From Anaerolineae bacterium (lineage in GTDB: Bacteria; Chloroflexota; Anaerolineae; J102), in contig JALXCB010000083.1 of NCBI GenBank assembly GCA_026991225.1, positions 1-62,191 on the forward strand: 62,191 bases of DNA, written 5' to 3'. This document shows positions 9,340 through 57,336 of this stretch, piece by piece; the stretch's first letter is position 1, and the number at the start of each line of letters is the position of its first letter. A model generated the notes under the pieces. The model worked only from the letters and a program-made list of their open reading frames with translations. It was not told the DNA's origin and ran no database searches. The translations under genes and the position numbers were made by a program.

Positions 9340-9351
9340 GAAAAATACCCA

Positions 9352-9506
9352 CCAGCCAGGTTGGCGCGGGAAGCCGAGTTCGTAATGCGTAATGCGTGAT
9401 GCGTAACGACCTCACGGATTACGCATTACGCATCACGCCAGTTGCAGACTCGCCCAACGTGGGCTGCGAGTTGCTTTTGCAGACAAGCGCAAAGCTATTT
9501 TCAAAG
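9352..9506. repeat. Dispersed modular repeat, centre A
   Basis: GGCGCGGGAAGCC, the palindrome GTAATGCGTGATGCGTAACG / CGGATTACGCATTACGCATC, ACTCGCCCAACG and the terminal CTATTTTCAAAGC occur in this order, as in the other copies. The right end runs into the 3' end of the alanine dehydrogenase gene and supplies its TGA stop (9501-9503). Confidence 0.8.
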
Positions 9507-10610
9507 CAATTCTTCCAGGGGCGTCCAATCCATGCCAAAGGCCTCGGCCACTGCGGGGTAGGTGATATGCCCCTTGAACGCGTTCACCCCTTTGGCCAGC
9601 GCCCCATCCCGCTTAATGGCCTCGATGGGCCCGAGATTGGCCAGCTTCACCATGTAGGGCAGGGTGGCGTTGTTCAGACCGTAGGTGCTGGTGCGGGGCA
9701 CGGCGCCGGGCATGTTCGACACGCAATAATGCACCACGCCATCCACCAGAAAGGTGGGATTGGAGTGGGTGGTGGGGTGGGTGGTCTCGATGCATCCGCC
9801 CTGATCCACGGCCACATCCACGACGACGCTGCCCGGATTCATGGTGCGGATCATCGGCCGGGTGACCAGCTTGGGCGCGCGGGCGCCCTTCACCAACACC
9901 GCGCCTATGAGCAGATCGGCCCGTTTTACCGCTTCGGCGATATTGACGGGATTCGAGGCCATGGTGGCCAGACGCCCGCCCAGCACGTCATCCAGATAGC
10001 GCAGCCGATCCAGATTGATATCGATGATCACCACGTTCGCGCCCATCCCCAGCGCGATCTTGGCCGCGTTCGTGCCCACGGTGCCGCCGCCGATGATGAC
10101 GACATCGGCCGGGCGCACGCCGGGGATGCCCGACAACAGCTTGCCCCGACCGCCGTTCATCTTTTCCAGATAATACGCGCCGATCTGCACCGACATGCGG
10201 CCCGCCACCTCGCTCATGGGCTGGAGCAGGGGCAGATGCCCGTCGGGCAGCTCCACCGTCTCATAGGCGATCCCCAGCACGCCGCTGGCGACCATCGCCC
10301 TGGTCAACTCCTCGTCCGCGGCCAGGTGCAGGTAGGTGAACAGGGTCAGGTCCGGGCGCAGAAACGCGTATTCCGAGGGCTGCGGCTCCTTCACCTTGAC
10401 TACCATGTTCGCGGACCATGCGTCCGCGGCCGTGGGCACGATTTTGGCGCCAGCCTGTTCATACACCTCATCCGAAAAACCGCTGCCTTCCCCGGCCCCT
10501 TGCTGCACCCAGACTTCGTGTCCCTCATGCACCAACTGCTTGACGCCGCCCGGCGTCATGGCGACGCGGTACTCATTGTCTTTGATCTCCTTGGGCACGC
10601 CGATGATCAT
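9501..10610 (-). CDS. ald: Alanine dehydrogenase
   Basis: This 369-residue enzyme interconverts L-alanine and pyruvate plus ammonia with NAD. Family residues are in place: R15 (EYRVAMTP), K74 (VKVKEPQ), H95 (YLHLAAD), the nucleotide loop [11 protein letters not shown] and VDVAVDQGG with the catalytic Asp. I chose ATG 10610 ([10 protein letters not shown]) because GGAGG lies 7 nt upstream and the upstream extension is not conserved. Length is normal. The stop codon TGA is part of a dispersed repeat end. Confidence 0.95.
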
Positions 10611-10631
10611 CGTTGATCCTCCGTAATGGAA

Positions 10632-10673
10632 AAATAAAAGATTGGCGTTATTCACGCCAGGGACAGGCCCTGG
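10632..10673 (-). promoter_or_regulatory. Leader with two mutually exclusive hairpins (attenuator-like)
   Basis: In the ald leader (minus strand) CCAGGG/CCCTGG (10657-10673) and TGGCG/CGCCA (10643-10659) share three bases, so they cannot form together. The second is followed by ATCTTTTATTTT and then the SD. This resembles an anti-terminator/terminator pair, though its 5-bp stem is short. Confidence 0.35.
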
Positions 10674-11267: not shown

Positions 11268-11466
11268 ATAGACGGCGCAAGGCATCGCGCGCCGATACCG
11301 ATGAAAACGCCTCGCGGCCAGGGCGGCGCGGGAAGCCAGGCACGTAATGCGTGATGCGTAATGACCTCACAGATTACGGATTACGCATTACGCCCGTTGC
11401 CCTCGCCCAACTCTGGCTTTGCGAACCTTCAGCAACCAGCGATCATTCTATTTTCATAGCAACATT
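11268..11466. repeat. Dispersed modular repeat, centre A, both ends present
   Basis: CGCCGATACCGATGAAAACG (left module) starts near 11290, followed by GGCGCGGGAAGCC, the GTAATGCGTGATGCG palindrome, CTCGCCCAACTC, and the right end TTCTATTTTCATAGC (about 11449-11463). It lies just upstream of the ribD promoter. Confidence 0.8.
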
Positions 11467-15869: not shown

Positions 15870-16100
15870 CTTACAAACTGTTCTGAAAATAGAAAATAGG
15901 GGTGCGTCCCAGAATTTGGCGTCATTCAGCCGACTGAAGTCGAACTCTTCGGGCCTGCGGCTAGCCCCCCTCTTCATCTCCCCTGCAAGCAGGGGAGAAT
16001 AGCGGAAGGGAATAAGATGACAGCCTACGGCGTCCAATCTTCCGAACGACGCAGGTCAACCGCTGGCGCGAAGCGCCTAAAGGGGGTGTAGACCTTGGAT
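15870..16100. repeat. Repeat block shared with 56850-56965
   Basis: CGACTGAAGTCG, GGCCTGCGGCTAG, CCCCTCTTCATCTCCCCTGC and TCAAT... segments here match the 56850-56965 block with few changes, including GCGGAAGGGAATAAGATGAC. A TGAAAATAG motif sits at about 15882. The rest of 15739-16202 holds no gene. Confidence 0.65.
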
Positions 16101-26479: not shown

Positions 26480-26660
26480 CTGCTTTGAAAATAGATTTGG
26501 AGGACGCAGATGACGCAGATTGAAACGGATGAACGCAGATAAAAAGAAAAAAATCTGTAAAAATCATCTGCGGAAATCTGCGATGCGAAGCATCCATGTC
26601 ATCTGCGTTCTCATTTTCGTCCGTATCGGCGAGCTTTCGCTCGTGACGCCTGCTCTTGGG
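26480..26660. repeat. Modular repeat, centre B, both ends
   Basis: Right end GCTTTGAAAATAG (26481-26494), centre ACGCAGATGACGCAGATTG with its mirror, left module CGTATCGGCGAGC (about 26623-26635) then CGTGACGCCTGC. It overlaps the 3' end of the next gene, encoding the last residues and stop of that protein. Confidence 0.8.
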
Positions 26661-27615
26661 CGTAGGCGATCCAGGCGGCGTAGTCGGGCTGGTTCCACTT
26701 GGGCGCTTTGACGATGGCCGCTAGTTCCTCTTCGCTCATGGCGGCCAGCTTTTCGAAGGTGCACACGCCCGCGTCGTATAGCCGGGCCTCGTAGGTCTTG
26801 CCGATGCCGGGCAGGCTCTCGAAATCATCGGGCTCCTGACCGCTCCACACATGCCCGACCGTGCCCGTCTCTTCGGCCAGCCGCCGGGCGTCCGTCTTGA
26901 TCGCGTCCAGGTCCACGGCCTGGAAGTCCTTGAGATCGAAGATCTCGGCCAGCTTTTCGTTGGGCGCAGTGGCCACCTGCCAGAATGTGCCGATGCCGGC
27001 GCGATAGAGTTTGTCTTCATACACCCGCCCGATGCCGTGGATCCGGGCCAGCTTCTGCGGACAGTGGCTGACGGTGGTTTCCGATTCCGATTCCGGTTGG
27101 GCTTCGGCCGTGGCCGCCGCGGGCGGCGTTTCCTTCGCCTCGCTCGCCTCTGCTTCTGCCGCGATGGCCGCGAGTCGGGCGGCGGGCGCTGCTTCCACCG
27201 CTGCGGGTAGCGTTTCTTCTGGCCCTGGCGCCACTTCCGCTTCCCCGGCGGCTTCTTCGACGCCTTCAGCAGATCGCTCTGCCCCCGCTTCTTCGGCGGG
27301 AGCGGAGGCTACCGCTTCTTCGAGTTCAGCCTCGACCGCCGCCTCCTCGGCGACTGCTTCGACGGCAGCGATCGGCTGTTCTGGGGTCGTTTCGGCGGCG
27401 GGAGCGGGAGGTTCGGGCGCAGATTCCAATGCCTCATGGAGATCATCGATTTTCCCTTCGATGGCCCCCAACTCCGCCTTGCGGGCCTGAAGCTCCGCGG
27501 TCATTTTTGCCAACTGATCCCGGCAGGATTCGTAATTTTTGCGGCCCATGAAGAGTCCAATCAGGCCGCCTATGATGAGTCCTCCAAAAAATGAAAGCCA
27601 GGGCGAAATTGACAT
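26611..27615 (-). CDS. Membrane-anchored protein with two helix-hairpin-helix (H3TH-like) domains
   Basis: The 334-residue protein has an N-terminal membrane helix (WLSFFGGLIIGGLIGLFMG), a coiled coil (RDQLAKMTAELQARKAEL), a low-complexity Ala/Glu/Pro linker (about 68-180), and two C-terminal HhH-type domains: LARIHGIGRVYEDKLYRAG and LPGIGKTYEARLYDAG. This tail resembles the H3TH proteins annotated as flap-endonuclease-like. It could tether DNA or RNA to the membrane. The last 12 codons and the TGA are part of a dispersed repeat. [10 protein letters not shown] precedes ATG 27615. Confidence 0.8.
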   Translation of the reverse strand: MSISPWLSFFGGLIIGGLIGLFMGRKNYESCRDQLAKMTAELQARKAELGAIEGKIDDLHEALESAPEPPAPAAETTPEQPIAAVEAVAEEAAVEAELEEAVASAPAEEAGAERSAEGVEEAAGEAEVAPGPEETLPAAVEAAPAARLAAIAAEAEASEAKETPPAAATAEAQPESESETTVSHCPQKLARIHGIGRVYEDKLYRAGIGTFWQVATAPNEKLAEIFDLKDFQAVDLDAIKTDARRLAEETGTVGHVWSGQEPDDFESLPGIGKTYEARLYDAGVCTFEKLAAMSEEELAAIVKAPKWNQPDYAAWIAYAQEQASRAKARRYGRK

Positions 27616-30998: not shown

Positions 30999-31946
30999 AT
31001 GATGCAACCCGTCCTACTCTTCCCCGGTCAGGGGTCGCAGGAAGTGGGCATGGGCGCAGATATCGTCGCTCACTCGCCCGCGGCCGCGGCCATTTTCGAT
31101 CAGGCCGACGCCATCCTGGGCTTCCCCCTCTCCCGACTCTGCTTCGAAGGCCCGGAAGACGTCCTTACCGACACCATCAACGTCCAACCTGCGTTGCTGA
31201 CCGCCAGCATCGCCGCGCTACGCGCGGTGGAGGAGCAGCTTGGGCGGCCCATCGATGCGGCTGCGGCCGCAGGACATAGTCTGGGCGAGTACAGCGCCCT
31301 GGTGGCCGCGGGCGCGCTCACATTCGAGGATGCACTGCGGCTGGTGCGGGAACGCGGTCGGTTGATGAAGCTGGCGGGCGAACGCGCGCCCGGCGGCATG
31401 GCCGCGATCATCGCCCTGGATACGGAGAAGATCGAAAGCATCTGTCAGCAGGCCAGCAGCGAGGGGGATGGCGTCGTGGTCATCGCCAACGACAATTGTC
31501 CGGGTCAGGTGGTCATTTCGGGCGATGAAGGGCCCCTCAATCGGGCCATGGCCCTGGCTCAGGAGGCGGGCGCGCGCAAGGTGGTGCGATTGGCCGTCTC
31601 CATCGCCGCGCACAGTCCCCTCATGGGCGCGGTGCAGGAAGAGTTCGCGGCCGCGGTGGCTCAGGCCCATATCCAACGCCCGATCTTCCCCGTCATCGCC
31701 AACATTACGGCCCAGCCCCTCACCGACGTGGACGCCATCCGCCAGGAGCTGGTGGGACAGCTTCAACATTCCGTGCAATGGACCAGGTCCATGCAATATC
31801 TCATCGATCAGGGCCATGAGACCTTCATCGAATTCGGGCCGGGCAAGGTGCTGGCGGGCCTGATGAAACGCATCGACCGCCGTTTCCGCAAAATGCCCGC
31901 GGTCGTGACCTGGGAAGACGTGCAGGCCGTGGCGGAGCTGCTATGA
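30999..31946 (+). CDS. fabD: Malonyl-CoA:ACP transacylase
   Basis: The 315-residue enzyme loads malonate on acyl carrier protein. It has LLFPGQGSQEVGMG, the serine nucleophile S94 in GHSLGEYSAL, the arginine loop RGRLMK, and AAHSPLM with the catalytic His. Either ATG at 30999 or 31002 may start it; CGGAGA precedes by 8 nt. Its last codons CTA TGA AAA TAA come from the end motif of a dispersed repeat, so the stop is repeat-derived. fabG follows after a repeat-filled gap. Confidence 0.94.
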   Translation: MMQPVLLFPGQGSQEVGMGADIVAHSPAAAAIFDQADAILGFPLSRLCFEGPEDVLTDTINVQPALLTASIAALRAVEEQLGRPIDAAAAAGHSLGEYSALVAAGALTFEDALRLVRERGRLMKLAGERAPGGMAAIIALDTEKIESICQQASSEGDGVVVIANDNCPGQVVISGDEGPLNRAMALAQEAGARKVVRLAVSIAAHSPLMGAVQEEFAAAVAQAHIQRPIFPVIANITAQPLTDVDAIRQELVGQLQHSVQWTRSMQYLIDQGHETFIEFGPGKVLAGLMKRIDRRFRKMPAVVTWEDVQAVAELL

Positions 31947-32062
31947 AAATAAAGTAATCAGTGATCAGTTATCAGTAATCAGTGGAAATCTGCGAAGCAT
32001 CTGCGAAAATCTGCGTTCTCATTTTCATCGGTATCCGCGAGCCGTGGCTCGTGTCGCCTGCT
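31937..32062. repeat. Modular repeat, centre C plus part of B
   Basis: Right end CTGCTATGAAAATAAAGT (31938-31955), then ATCAGTTATCAGTAATCAG, AAATCTGCG repeats, TCATTTTCATCGGTATCCGC and CGTGTCGCCTG. The same right end occurs at 36550, showing the element is a family member. Confidence 0.75.
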
Positions 32063-32345
32063 ATGAAAGGATTAGGGAACGCAGATGACGCAGATTGAAA
32101 AGGATGGACGCAGATGAAAAGAAAAAATCCGTAACTGCTAACGTACTTGACTTTAGGCCGCCAAAAGCCACGAAGGCTCGAAGTTTTTCGAAGATACGAA
32201 GGAAACATAAAGAAAAATACGTCGTGCCTTCGCTTTTCTTCGTGTCTTCGTGGCAAAAAGTGGCGGCGACACCTTAGTAGTTACGTCATCTGCGAAAATC
32301 TGCGTTGCATCCGCGTTATCAGCGTTCCCATTTTCGTTCATCCAT
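32061..32345. repeat. Modular repeat, centre B, interrupted by a MITE
   Basis: The left arm GATTAGGGAACGCAGATGAC (32070) and right arm TCATCTGCGAAAATCTGCG (32286) match the intact copies at 20355 and 26500. In between sits the 154-bp MITE-like element. Confidence 0.75.
32131..32284. mobile_element. MITE-like element nested in another repeat
   Basis: Starts GTAACTGCTAACGTAC and ends CCTTAGTAGTTAC. Its interior is nearly the reverse complement of the 24795-24947 copy. Compared with intact host repeats, about seven host bases at the junction are missing and no target duplication is seen. Confidence 0.72.
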
Positions 32346-35217: not shown

Positions 35218-36540
<1,323 letters not shown>

Positions 36541-36549
36541 GGGCGAATG

Positions 36550-36660
36550 CTGCTATGAAAATAAAGTGATCAATGATCAGTTATCAGTAATCAGTGGAAA
36601 TCTGCGTTCTCATTTTCATCGGTATCGGCGCATCACCGCGCGTGGCGCCTTCGGGGCTCA
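36550..36660. repeat. Modular repeat, centre C short form
   Basis: GCTGCTATGAAAATAAAGTG (36550-36569), ATCAGTTATCAGTAATCAG, CTGCGTTCTCATTTTCATCG and GGTATCGGCG follow one another. It is a shorter version of the 31937 element. Confidence 0.7.
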
Positions 36661-37154: not shown

Positions 37155-37165
37155 GCCGCCGTGCA

Positions 37166-37288
37166 ACGAAACGACGCCGAGTGAACCCGGCTTGATTGCG
37201 GCTACGGCAGAAAGGCCCCATTCATGGGGCGTCGTTCTTGGCCCGTAGGAGAACCTGCGGGTGGCCGCATGGCCTTTAGAACAGCTTA
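37166..37288. repeat. Direct repeat unit, copy 1
   Basis: A 123-bp unit beginning ACGAAACGACGCC and ending GAACAGCTTA. It matches the second copy (37353-37475) with about two differences (GAGTGAACCC versus GGGTGAACCC; AAAGGCC versus AAAGACC). Short hairpins such as CCCCATTCATGGGG lie inside. Confidence 0.75.
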
Positions 37289-37352
37289 AACTAAACGCAT
37301 TTTGAAATCAGGTGTTTTCGGCCTCGGCCACCCGGAGCTGAAGCTCCGGGCT

Positions 37353-37475
37353 ACGAAACGACGCCGGGTGAACCCGGCTTGATTGCGGCTACGGCAGAAA
37401 GACCCCATTCATGGGGCGTCGTTCTTGGCCCGTAGGAGAACCTGCGGGTGGCCGCATGGCCTTTAGAACAGCTTA
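37353..37475. repeat. Direct repeat unit, copy 2
   Basis: Second copy of the 123-bp unit; its last bases TTA (37473-37475) are the TAA stop of the large surface protein on the minus strand. Confidence 0.75.
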
Positions 37476-46641: not shown

Positions 46642-46671
46642 AGATGGCCTTGCGTGAGATTGATTGGCTGG

Positions 46672-46852
46672 CGTCACGAGCGGCAGCTCGCCGATACAGA
46701 TGAAAACGGCTCGCGGCCAGGGCGGGCGCGGGAAGCCGATTTCGTAATCCGTAATGACCTCACGGATTACGGATTACGCATCACGTCAGTTGCAGGCTCG
46801 CCCAACCTTGGCTTTGCGAACTTTTCGCAACCGACGATCATTCTATTTTCAA
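46672..46852. repeat. Modular repeat, centre A, both ends
   Basis: CGTCACGAGCGGCAGCTCGC (46672), CGCCGATACAGATGAAAACG, GGCGCGGGAAGCC, GTAATCCGTAATGACCTC palindrome, CTCGCCCAACC, and the right end TTCTATTTTCAAAAC (46841-46855). It supplies the stop of the next gene. Confidence 0.85.
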
Positions 46853-47376
46853 AACAGCGTGGCATTCATCGCCAGGATGACGAGGATGCTGGCAAGGGCT
46901 CCGATGATCCAGCCGACGATGACATCGCCCAGATAGTGGACGCCCAGCGCCACTCGGGCCCAGATGCAGATGAGGGAGATGAACCAGAATAACAGCGCGA
47001 ACTGGGGGAAAATCCAGGCTCCGAAGATGGGAAGCGTGCCCATGCGGGTGGCGTGGCCGCTGGGAAAAGCGTGGCGGTCGTAGCCCTTGCTGTAAAAGCC
47101 GTCGATCTCCTGCGGACGCGGGCGTTTGAGGGTGAATTTGATGGCGTAAGTGACCACAGCCGCCAGGATGGAAGCAATCACCCAGCCCAGAATCTGCCAG
47201 CGGATGGGCGGGCCGAAAACGATCATGCCCGCGGCCCATAATACGAGCCACAGCGGCCCATCGCCCAAATGCGCCGCTACCGTGGCAATGGCCTTGCCCG
47301 TGCGATGATCATCCACCCGCAGCGCCTGACTCCACCGCTGGTCGACCGCCTCCAAACGCGCCACCCAGGAACTCAT
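46849..47376 (-). CDS. PAP2-family membrane phosphatase
   Basis: The 175-residue protein has about five membrane helices and the PAP2 motifs KFTLKRPRP, FPSGHATRMG and ARVALGVHYLGDV. Such enzymes remove phosphate from lipid phosphates such as undecaprenyl diphosphate. Its start overlaps the stop of the nucleotidyltransferase gene (ATGA). The stop TGA (46849-46851) is part of a dispersed repeat end. Confidence 0.93.
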   Translation of the reverse strand: MSSWVARLEAVDQRWSQALRVDDHRTGKAIATVAAHLGDGPLWLVLWAAGMIVFGPPIRWQILGWVIASILAAVVTYAIKFTLKRPRPQEIDGFYSKGYDRHAFPSGHATRMGTLPIFGAWIFPQFALLFWFISLICIWARVALGVHYLGDVIVGWIIGALASILVILAMNATLF

Positions 47377-54344: not shown

Positions 54345-54548
54345 GCAAAAGCCGCCACGAGCGAAAGCTGGCTCATGCGGGTGAAAACGCCTCGCGGCCA
54401 CGTCGGCGCAGGAAGCCAATCCCGTAATACGTAATGCGTGATGCGTAATGACCTCACGGATTACGGATTACGCATCACGTCCGTAGCAGACTCGCCCAAC
54501 GCGGGCTTCGAGTTGATTTTGCAAACCAACGCAACGCTATTTTCGGAA
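54345..54548. repeat. Modular repeat, centre A, between tdh and kbl
   Basis: CCACGAGCGAAAGCTGGCTC (54356), GTGAAAACGCCTCGCGG, GTAATGCGTGATGCG palindrome, ACTCGCCCAACG and the right end CGCTATTTTCGGAAC (54534-54548), which touches the kbl SD (GGAG). Confidence 0.8.
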
Positions 54549-54561
54549 CAGGAGTATGATC

Positions 54562-55746
54562 ATGGCTGATAAACTTGATTTCATCGTTGAAGAGCTGGAA
54601 CGGCTCAAGGCCGAGCACCTGTTCATCAACATCCGCACCATCGAATCCCCGGCCGACGGTTGGATGATCGTGGATGGGAAGAAGGTGCTCAATTTCTGTA
54701 CGAACAACTATTTGGGCCTGGCCAATCATCCACGGCTAAAGGAGGCCGCCAAGAAAGCAGTGGATGCGTGGGGCGTGGGCCCGGCCGCGGTGCGCACCAT
54801 CGCTGGCACGACTCGGCTGCATCTGGAGCTGGAAAAACGTCTGGCTGCGTTCAAAGGCGTGGAGGACGCGCTTTTCGTGCAGAGCGGCTTCAATGCCAAT
54901 CAGGCTGCGATCCCGCCCCTGGTGGGCAAGGGCGACGTCATCTTTTCCGATCGCCTCAACCACGCCTCCATCATCGATGGCGCCCGGCTCTCTCGGGCCA
55001 AGATCGTCGTCTATGAACACTGCGATCCCGAGGACCTGGAGGCAAAAGTGCAGGAGCATCTGCCTCAGTATCGTCGAGGTCTGGTGGTCACCGATGGCGT
55101 CTTCAGCATGGATGGCGACATCGCGCCTCTGGACAAAATCTACGCCGTGGCGGAGAAATATGGCCTGATGACCATGGTGGACGACGCCCACGGCGAGGGC
55201 GTGCTGGGCCGCGGCGGCCGCGGCATCGTCGATCATTTCGGTTTGCACGGCAAATTCGACGTGGAGATCGGCACGCTATCCAAAGCTTTCGGCGTCGTCG
55301 GCGGCGTTATCGCCGGCAAGAAGCTCATCGTGGATTACATCCGGCAGAAGGCCCGGCCCTTCCTCTTCTCCAGCGCGCCCACGCCCGCGGACACGGCCGC
55401 CTGTCTGGCCGCAGTAGACATCCTGGAGGAGAGCGAGGAGCTGGTGGAGCGCCTGTGGGAGAACGCCCGGTATCTGAAAGCGGGCATGGATGAGCTGGGC
55501 TTCGATACGGGCCACAGCCAGACGCCCATCCTGCCCATCATGCTGGGCGACGCCGGGCTGGCCAAGGAGTTCAGCCGCAAGTTATTCGAAAATGGCGTCT
55601 TCGCCATGGGCATCGGCTATCCCACCGTTCCCAAGGGTCAGGCTCGCATCCGCGTGATGAACACCGCCGCTCACACCAAAGCGGACCTGGACTTCGGTCT
55701 GGAAGTCTTCGCCAAAGTCGGCCGCGAGCTGGGCGTGATCCAGTGA
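54562..55746 (+). CDS. kbl: Glycine C-acetyltransferase (2-amino-3-ketobutyrate CoA ligase)
   Basis: The 394-residue PLP enzyme splits 2-amino-3-oxobutyrate with CoA into glycine and acetyl-CoA. It has [58 protein letters not shown] with the PLP lysine, and [15 protein letters not shown] 54562 is set by GGAG (54551-54554) 7 nt upstream; an in-frame ATG 6 nt earlier exists. Together with tdh it converts threonine to glycine. Confidence 0.95.
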
Positions 55747-56965: not shown

Positions 56966-57159
56966 TGACAAACAAAAAGGTCGCCGAAGGGCGACCACCG
57001 GCACCATCGAATCCTCCTTCCTTATTTCCTCCCCCGCCCGTCTCGAAGCGGGGGAGGAAGCAAAGGAGGGGGCTTGCGCCTAAAGAGCCCGAGTTCACTC
57101 GGCCAGTGTCGCGGCGAAAAAGGGAAGTTATTTTTAGACGCTCACTTAGCAGACGGCCC

Positions 57160-57250
57160 GGGCGAAGGCTCGCCGATACGGATGAAAATGAGAACGCAGA
57201 TTTTCGCAGATGCTTCGCAGATTTCCACTGATTACTTTATTTTCACAGCA
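57160..57250. repeat. Modular repeat, minimal copy
   Basis: GGCTCGCCGATACGGATGAA (left end, 57166), GAGAACGCAGATTTTCGC, then TTTCCACTGATTACTTTATT and TTTTCACAGCAGG (right end). It is the shortest copy that has both ends. Confidence 0.75.
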
Positions 57251-57336
57251 GGACGGCTATAACGCGCCGACGCCGCAGAAAGCGTTGATAGCGACGCTTG
57301 CTGATGAAGCCGACGCGTTTTTACCTGTGACCATCC

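Follow-up and report, generated by a model that had tools for sequence, protein, structure and literature searches.

A family of short palindromic repeats with CTG edges supplies stop codons to genes of a Chloroflexota bacterium

Overview

The repeats that close several genes in the window (one entire contig of 62,191 nucleotides from a 3.87-Mb draft genome, G000, hereafter the host, with Caldilineae/Anaerolineae MAGs of the Chloroflexota as its nearest named relatives) are probably mobile cassettes without genes of their own that insert at CTG. Their location at the 3' ends of genes is, on the same reading, the product of the target motif and of purifying selection. The observations behind this explanation concern the sequence motif, the ends of the elements, the empty sites, the arrays and a comparison of C-termini with orthologues.

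A preliminary description had proposed that five genes of the window take stop codons and C-termini from repeats and had treated the five as one phenomenon. Four of them do involve the same repeats, in two different ways: three are insertions by the left end of an element, and one gene reads into a right end. The fifth, which encodes a large surface protein, adjoins a repeat of another family.

The repeat family and its ends

The repeats at the PAP2, ald, fabD and helix-hairpin-helix (HhH) genes belong to a single family (the TGAAAATAG family), from which the surface-protein repeat is excluded. The coordinates of the elements and of the genes are listed in Table 1. The left end has the consensus [CT]TG-YTN-[TC]GA-AAA-TAG. 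The window contains six copies of its 15-mer form, YTGYTNYGAAAATAG (equivalent to [CT]TG[CT]TN[TC]GAAAATAG), whereas 100 shuffles of the window yielded none. The genome has 213 copies, and the reversed motif, used as control, does not occur there. Complete elements, bounded by consecutive junctions, mostly measure 110-300 bp and are arranged head to tail in arrays. Both of their ends are fixed, the left as (CTG)YTNYGAAAATAG and the right as GTATCGGCG-hairpin-CGC/GGA-CTG. In most of the right ends that were recognised, TTTTCATCSGTATCGGCG is followed by the hairpin, in three sequence versions, and then by CTG. In 20 hand-picked right ends the GTAT at the foot of this hairpin is near-invariant (G10, T11 and T13 invariant, A12 in at least 90%) and the stem sequence varies.

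Between the two ends lies a long, imperfectly palindromic body whose arms are interchangeable. Widely differing palindromic words follow the left end (CGTAATGCGTGATGCG, ACGCAGATGACGCAG, CACGAAGGCGCGAAGG, CCGGTAGACCGG, AGTAATCAGTGATCAG and CACGGATGAACAC). When the whole element is folded as single-stranded DNA, it is closed by TGAAAAT:ATTTTCA and carries a second hairpin at the 3' end. No gene-carrying full-length parent was recognised between left and right ends in the host sample, and Rfam gave no match within the window. After some right ends (L034, L061, L108 and L012) comes CTGTTATGAACTT(TGGCTTCGTC), which seems to represent another repeat family with the same CTG-YTA-TGAA start.

The copy number of the left-end motif is patchy within the genus, from 2 to 281 per genome, which suggests recent bursts or losses. 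Copy numbers are 2-6 in G001, G003 and G007, and 184-281 in G000, G002 and G005.

Table 1. Genes and repeat elements discussed in the text, with their positions in the window
Feature	Position	Strand	Details
PAP2-superfamily gene	46849..47376	-	last codons A-T-L-F, TGA in repeat left end; Pfam PAP2 4.6e-18
Element at PAP2 stop	46668..46857	-	left junction CTGTTTTGAAAATAG 46843-46857; right-end hairpin 46668-46706 (GTATCGGCGAGC..GCTCGTGACGCCAG)
Alanine dehydrogenase (ald) gene	9501..10655	-	ends ..E-E-L-L-TGA; Pfam AlaDh_PNT_C 4.4e-86
Element at ald stop	9342..9509	-	left junction TTGCTTTGAAAATAG 9495-9509; arm repeats 9387-9445; canonical right end absent
fabD-like acyltransferase gene	31002..31946	+	ends ..A-E-L-L-TGA; Pfam Acyl_transf_1 9e-42
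Element at fabD stop	31938..32060	+	left junction CTGCTATGAAAATAA 31938-31952; right end 32022-32060
Second, degenerate element of fabD array (CTGCTATGAAAGGAT)	32058..32330	+	split by a MITE at about 32131-32284
Element into whose right end the HhH gene runs	26480..26652	+	left junction 26480-26494; right end 26614-26652
Helix-hairpin-helix (HhH) protein gene	26611..27615	-	last 12 codons and TGA in element right end; Pfam HHH_5 2.3e-10
Element 9 bases past the TGA of gene 35218-36540	36550..36651	+	right end 36613-36651
Element facing the start of gene 54562-55746	54384..54551	-	left junction CTGTTCCGAAAATAG 54537-54551, at the edge of the gene's Shine-Dalgarno box (GGAACAGGAG)
Intergenic element	11269..11462	-	junction 11448-11462; right end 11269-11307
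Element	57150..57251	-	junction 57237-57251; right end 57150-57188
Left-end motif CTGTTCTGAAAATAG, no recognised right end	15878..15892	+	
130-bp repeat of a different family, second copy (CTGTTCTAAAGGCC..)	37346..37475	-	adjoins the surface-protein TAA, 37473-37475

The stop codons of three genes lie within the left end of an element, exactly where the preliminary description had placed them. The PAP2 gene ends in CTG TTT TGA AAA TAG, ald in TTG CTT TGA AAA TAG and fabD in CTG CTA TGA AAA TAA. The HhH gene likewise owes its last 12 codons (ASRAKARRYGRK) and its TGA to an element on the + strand, the right end of which it reads. The surface protein, whose TAA was also attributed to a repeat, is a different case. 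The 130-bp repeat that it adjoins has six copies in the host sample; both window copies carry the TAA, whereas four other sampled copies have TGACG and not TAAG before CTGTTCTAAAGG, so that the TAA is no fixed part of that repeat. At L198 and L204, CTCCGGGCTACG../GTGAACCCGGCT-like palindromes similar to these 130-bp repeats (window 37159-37475) flank IS200-type Y1 genes. Gene and repeat may possibly form a transposase-repeat pair.

Insertion at CTG

Filled and empty versions of the same site were compared between G006 and G008, sister genomes with about 96% identity in the stretches compared; all genomes used for comparison are draft MAGs. Two clean pairs were obtained, neither of them at a stop codon. 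In the first, G008 reads CATT-CTG-TTTCGATAATTC and G006 reads CATA-CTG-CTTTGAAAATAG..GGCGA-CTG-TTTCGATAATTTC, where CATA-CTG and CTG-TTTCGATAATTTC enclose an array of two elements. In the second, CCGT-CTG-TTCCATGTC of G008 corresponds to CCGC-CTG-CTTTGAAAATAG..GTTGGA-CTG-TTCCATGTC of G006, where a single element lies between CCGC-CTG and CTG-TTCCATGTC. CTG therefore stands at both edges of the element and once in the empty site. In the empty sites this CTG is followed by sequence (TTTCGATAAT, TTCCATG) similar to the left end of the element itself.

A longer target-site duplication was ruled out. The left and right hexamers of the same element do not co-vary and the longer flanks do not match. 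The CTG edges could reflect a 3-bp duplication of the target made by a different kind of transposase.

The resemblance between target and junction, together with the tandem head-to-tail arrays, also brings to mind an integron-like system. A circular cassette with the junction ..CTG-YTNYGAAAATAG would recombine with CTG-YTNYGA by means of a site-specific recombinase, and the newest cassette would lie beside the gene. At the TsaE site, G006 does carry extra cassettes relative to G008. On the other hand, cassette genes are lacking, no recombinase gene came to light and no attC-like RYYYAAC/GTTRRRY boxes were seen when the right ends were read. At a third site (L333/L337), the G006 and G008 elements share both ends and have entirely different palindromic arms. 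A deletion between the repeats of an ancestral two-element array, as we infer, is the simpler explanation. An integron-like origin is unlikely.

The first insertions and deletions found between G006 and G008 were due to other MITEs and not to the element family. One of these, GTAACTGCTAACGT..ACCTTAGTAGTTAC, is nested in the fabD array of the window (32131-32284) and has very many copies in the sister genomes, including a G006 copy (L187, 7781-7958) with a clean empty site in G008 (L185, about 6103). Another, GGTGCGTCC..GGACGCACCC, occupies L125 1168-1401 in G006 and is absent from L124 (about 263) in G008; the 10-base direct repeat TAATCATTTG stands at its flanks and is single in the empty site.

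Position relative to stop and start codons

Genes of the host sample (1.19 Mb at first, then 1.47 Mb) were called with a home-made hexamer-based script, and the gene list consists of these calls with no curated annotation, the stop positions being mechanical. When the junction that opens an array is preceded by a co-oriented gene, that gene stops at the TGA of the element in 12 cases, at its in-frame TAG in three and in another frame in one. Nine further genes stop 9-18 nt before the element TGA, that is, immediately 5' of the junction. In 11 of 20 fully delimited same-strand arrays nothing separates the gene from the left end (gap 0), and most of the gaps on the right are large (KS p=2.6e-8). 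Among the 1112 genes of the 1.47-Mb sample, part of which was picked because repeats are present there, 15 of the 19 that end in YTG-YTN-TGA carry an element and only four such ends are free. The sequence YTGYTNYGA in non-coding DNA is followed by AAAT in 97 of 174 instances.

Left ends also lie immediately upstream of start codons, against the Shine-Dalgarno box (Table 1, element facing a gene start), a position that the preliminary description had overlooked. Sites within 20 nt of start codons are enriched (p=0.0014) to a degree similar to that seen at gene tails, and CTCCTG is there the reversed Shine-Dalgarno sequence. These start-side left ends often lie 8-11 nt from the start of an opposite-strand gene and spare just its Shine-Dalgarno sequence (CAGGAG). 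An effect of the start-side elements on translation or on promoters is possible.

The proposal that insertion at stop codons is tolerated or even favoured thus holds in so far as left ends pile up exactly on stops and most YTG-YTN-TGA ends are occupied. A landing site just inside stop codons, as was also suggested, is too narrow: the real site is the motif CTG-YT(N-YGA), which is found in intergenic DNA and in Shine-Dalgarno boxes as well.

Whether stops as such are favoured is a separate matter. A hairpin or a tandem stop at the 3' end might benefit the gene through termination, protection of the mRNA 3' end or control of the ribosome, and the insertions would then be positively selected or aimed. 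In-frame tail sites are occupied about 3.7-fold more than sites 0-20 nt downstream (p=0.005), an excess that may mean more than tolerance, and the occupancy of matching gene ends given above points the same way. The PAP2 and TsaE positions hold different elements in different species, and in E. coli ribosome stalling has been reported for REPs located no more than 15 nt from a stop (PMC12306157). However, YTGYTN(T)GA coincides with a stop by nature, and the start-side edges are as strongly enriched as the stops. The frame of insertion is also less telling than it seems. The excess of in-frame insertions is significant against an expectation of one third, but not against the natural frame of the motif (p=0.08). 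Where a gene carries no element, 69 of the 90 YTGYT sites within the last nine codons are in frame (frames 69:15:6), because YTG is a Leu codon. This natural frame in gene tails rules out frame preference as proof of stop-codon targeting. In either of the two other frames, an insertion would lengthen the gene by a median of 17-22 codons. The natural frame of the motif and the cost of the other frames lead to the conclusion that motif plus selection accounts for most of the pattern. A moderate extra preference for the stop may exist; that stops are favoured because the gene benefits is possible but doubtful.

Comparison of C-termini with orthologues

Several genes end alike with and without an element. 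Orthologues of ald in G003 (..ESLL-TAA) and G005 (..EALL-TGA) have no element there and stop at the same residue. In three element-free relatives, UvrC (named from its sequence) terminates at the same position, with ELL, ELL and EML, and the G004 orthologue of a Thr-aldolase-like gene, also free of the element, ends in SLL-TGAACC at the same residue. The 982-aa gene of L024 has GGG-CTG-TTT-TGA at the left junction, and the displaced target, CGC-TTG-TTT-TGA-C, is still visible past the right end; its G004 orthologue lacks the element and ends in L-F-TGA. Orthologues of PAP2 end within about 1 residue, that of G002 with a different element at the same junction. The TsaE-like gene similarly has different elements at the same junction in G006 and G008.

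Small differences occur elsewhere. The nearest orthologue is 2-4 residues longer for fabD, L085, L298 and L302. Orthologues of fabD (..AALLAE/ASLSE) are at least 2 residues longer, and at L085 and L302 the protein of some relatives extends 2-7 residues further. Altogether, the C-termini of the stop-codon class differ by 0-4 residues in the nearest comparison. The HhH protein behaves otherwise: its orthologues end in ..AYAKEHLRS* or AYAKERLFA*, and its own end is ..AYAQEQASRAKARRYGRK*. No orthologue of the surface protein for an empty-site comparison was found among the loci compared.

The orthologues rule out a general replacement of C-termini by repeats. Judged from these alignments, the stop-codon cases involve no C-terminal replacement, and only the HhH tail is replaced and extended. 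The claim that repeats supply C-termini consequently survives for HhH alone. Several genes keep an identical C-terminus and stop without the repeat, the outcome that the preliminary description had named as refuting its reading, and in the stop-codon class relatives without an element end at the same residue or 1-4 residues later.

These comparisons also bear on the idea that insertions truncate genes and thereby make new Leu-Leu C-termini. The HhH tail, the longer relatives at L085 and L302 and the scarcity of free YTGYTN-TGA ends would agree with it, but Leu-Leu or Leu-Phe followed by a stop already stands at the aligned position, with no element, in ald, UvrC, the Thr-aldolase-like gene and the L024 gene. 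Truncation is hence very improbable as the general explanation.

Candidate mobilisers and known repeat systems

The elements resemble REP/BIME sequences, which would be mobilised by a Y1 transposase (RAYT, or TnpAREP) of the host. A tetranucleotide foot (GTAT) precedes the terminal hairpin, CT(G) lies beside it in the manner of the CT at which TnpAREP cuts REP (PMC8266576), and the host genome holds four IS200-type and one RAYT-like Y1 genes. Nonetheless, none of these five loci, inspected in the incomplete draft of G000, is flanked by the element family, other palindromes being present there. The number of Y1 genes bears no relation to copy number either: G002 (184 copies) and G012 (40) have no Y1 gene, and G001 (2) has four. 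Y1/RAYT was therefore set aside as the mobiliser, being unlinked to the elements and uncorrelated with their number. The foot is moreover GTAT and not GTAG or GTGG, the elements are 110-300 bp long with variable arms, and no orientation bias relative to GC skew was found (18 concordant and 27 discordant pairs, the skew of 20-kb pieces being a weak proxy). That these are true REP/BIME elements is rather unlikely. The likeness is one of architecture (hairpin, tetranucleotide foot and adjoining CT) and does not extend to the membership features compared.

IS110 was set aside as well, with no match to PF01548 in G005 (281 copies), G012, G008 and G004. An IS91/Helitron-like Y2 transposase gave no match in 11 genomes, a search in which the controls likewise gave none.

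PATE-type miniatures of IS200/IS605 presumably resemble the element, with subterminal hairpins, no inverted repeats and insertion 3' of a short fixed sequence. Here, however, CTG is present on both edges, no orientation bias like that of classical IS200/IS605 was seen with the GC-skew proxy and no cognate transposase was found.

Termini of GTAG REPs often give the stop codon (TAG) of flanking ORFs, also in Chloroflexi (PMC3733652). They share with the present family a high copy number, the intergenic palindromes, a conserved tetranucleotide foot and the donation of stops. The present elements differ by the GTAT foot, by their composite structure of 110-300 bp with variable arms and by the donation of TGA, or of TAG two codons on, from the left end, opposite the foot, where the Leu-stop frame is fixed. 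The CTG at both edges, known from the empty sites, further sets them apart. With the RAYT-associated BIMEs and REPINs they have in common mosaic arrays of intergenic palindromes, a patchy distribution among close relatives and CT beside the hairpin, but the units are head to tail and not inverted, no RAYT gene is flanked and no correlation with Y1 genes exists.

The MITEs ERIC, RU-1, NEMIS and RPE are also short and non-autonomous, have a stable fold and sometimes provide in-frame C-termini (PMC2229807, PMC2759123); MITEs fused in frame to genes have been reviewed (PMC2229807). In contrast, the present elements lack terminal inverted repeats at their tips and show no duplication of TA, their edge is the three-base CTG and their target overlaps gene ends. 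A DDE-type MITE would have terminal inverted repeats and a 2-10 bp duplication; the tips here lack the former, and the CTG at both edges may be a 3-bp duplication.

Proposed mechanism

The elements would be non-autonomous, gene-less mobile cassettes of about 110-300 bp. Insertion at CTG leaves CTG on both edges, as in the two filled/empty pairs, and, as the target CTG-YT-N-YGA resembles the left end of the element, every insertion would re-create the target motif and lead to head-to-tail arrays of cassettes. A gene that ends in YTG-YTN-TGA (Leu-Leu or Leu-Phe and a stop) spells this target. Insertion past the Leu codon would swap the last codon and the stop for the element's own YTN-TGA-AAA-TAG. 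The protein would then end as before, or 0-4 residues shorter, with a tandem stop behind it. Insertions in other frames, with about 17-22 added codons, are rarely seen, and purifying selection probably acts as the filter. The Shine-Dalgarno boxes (CAGGAG read backwards) would be a second tolerated edge. The mobiliser may be a single-strand enzyme of the HUH type, similar to those of REP/BIME.

Biological significance

The donation of stops by repeats is already known. Within the literature searched, the family, its CTG empty sites and its left end in Leu-stop frame appear to be new, and a search with words of the repeat returned no relevant paper. We would tentatively entertain the view that the elements belong to an undescribed cassette system of Caldilineae-like Chloroflexota. 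An enzyme would insert these palindromic cassettes, with their exchangeable arms and constant ends, at CTG-YTNYGA, their ends would read Leu-stop-Lys-stop in the frame set by the CTG codon of the target, and the 3' ends of genes would serve as safe, reusable docking sites.

The findings have three uses. They give a testable rule for why repeats sit on stops and Shine-Dalgarno boxes, namely that gene edges spell the target motif and that the end of the element restores the stop. They are a warning for annotation, as gene ends reading TGA-AAA-TAG and the intergenic words near them would be mobile DNA. The ends of the cassettes, finally, offer a handle for finding the missing enzyme.
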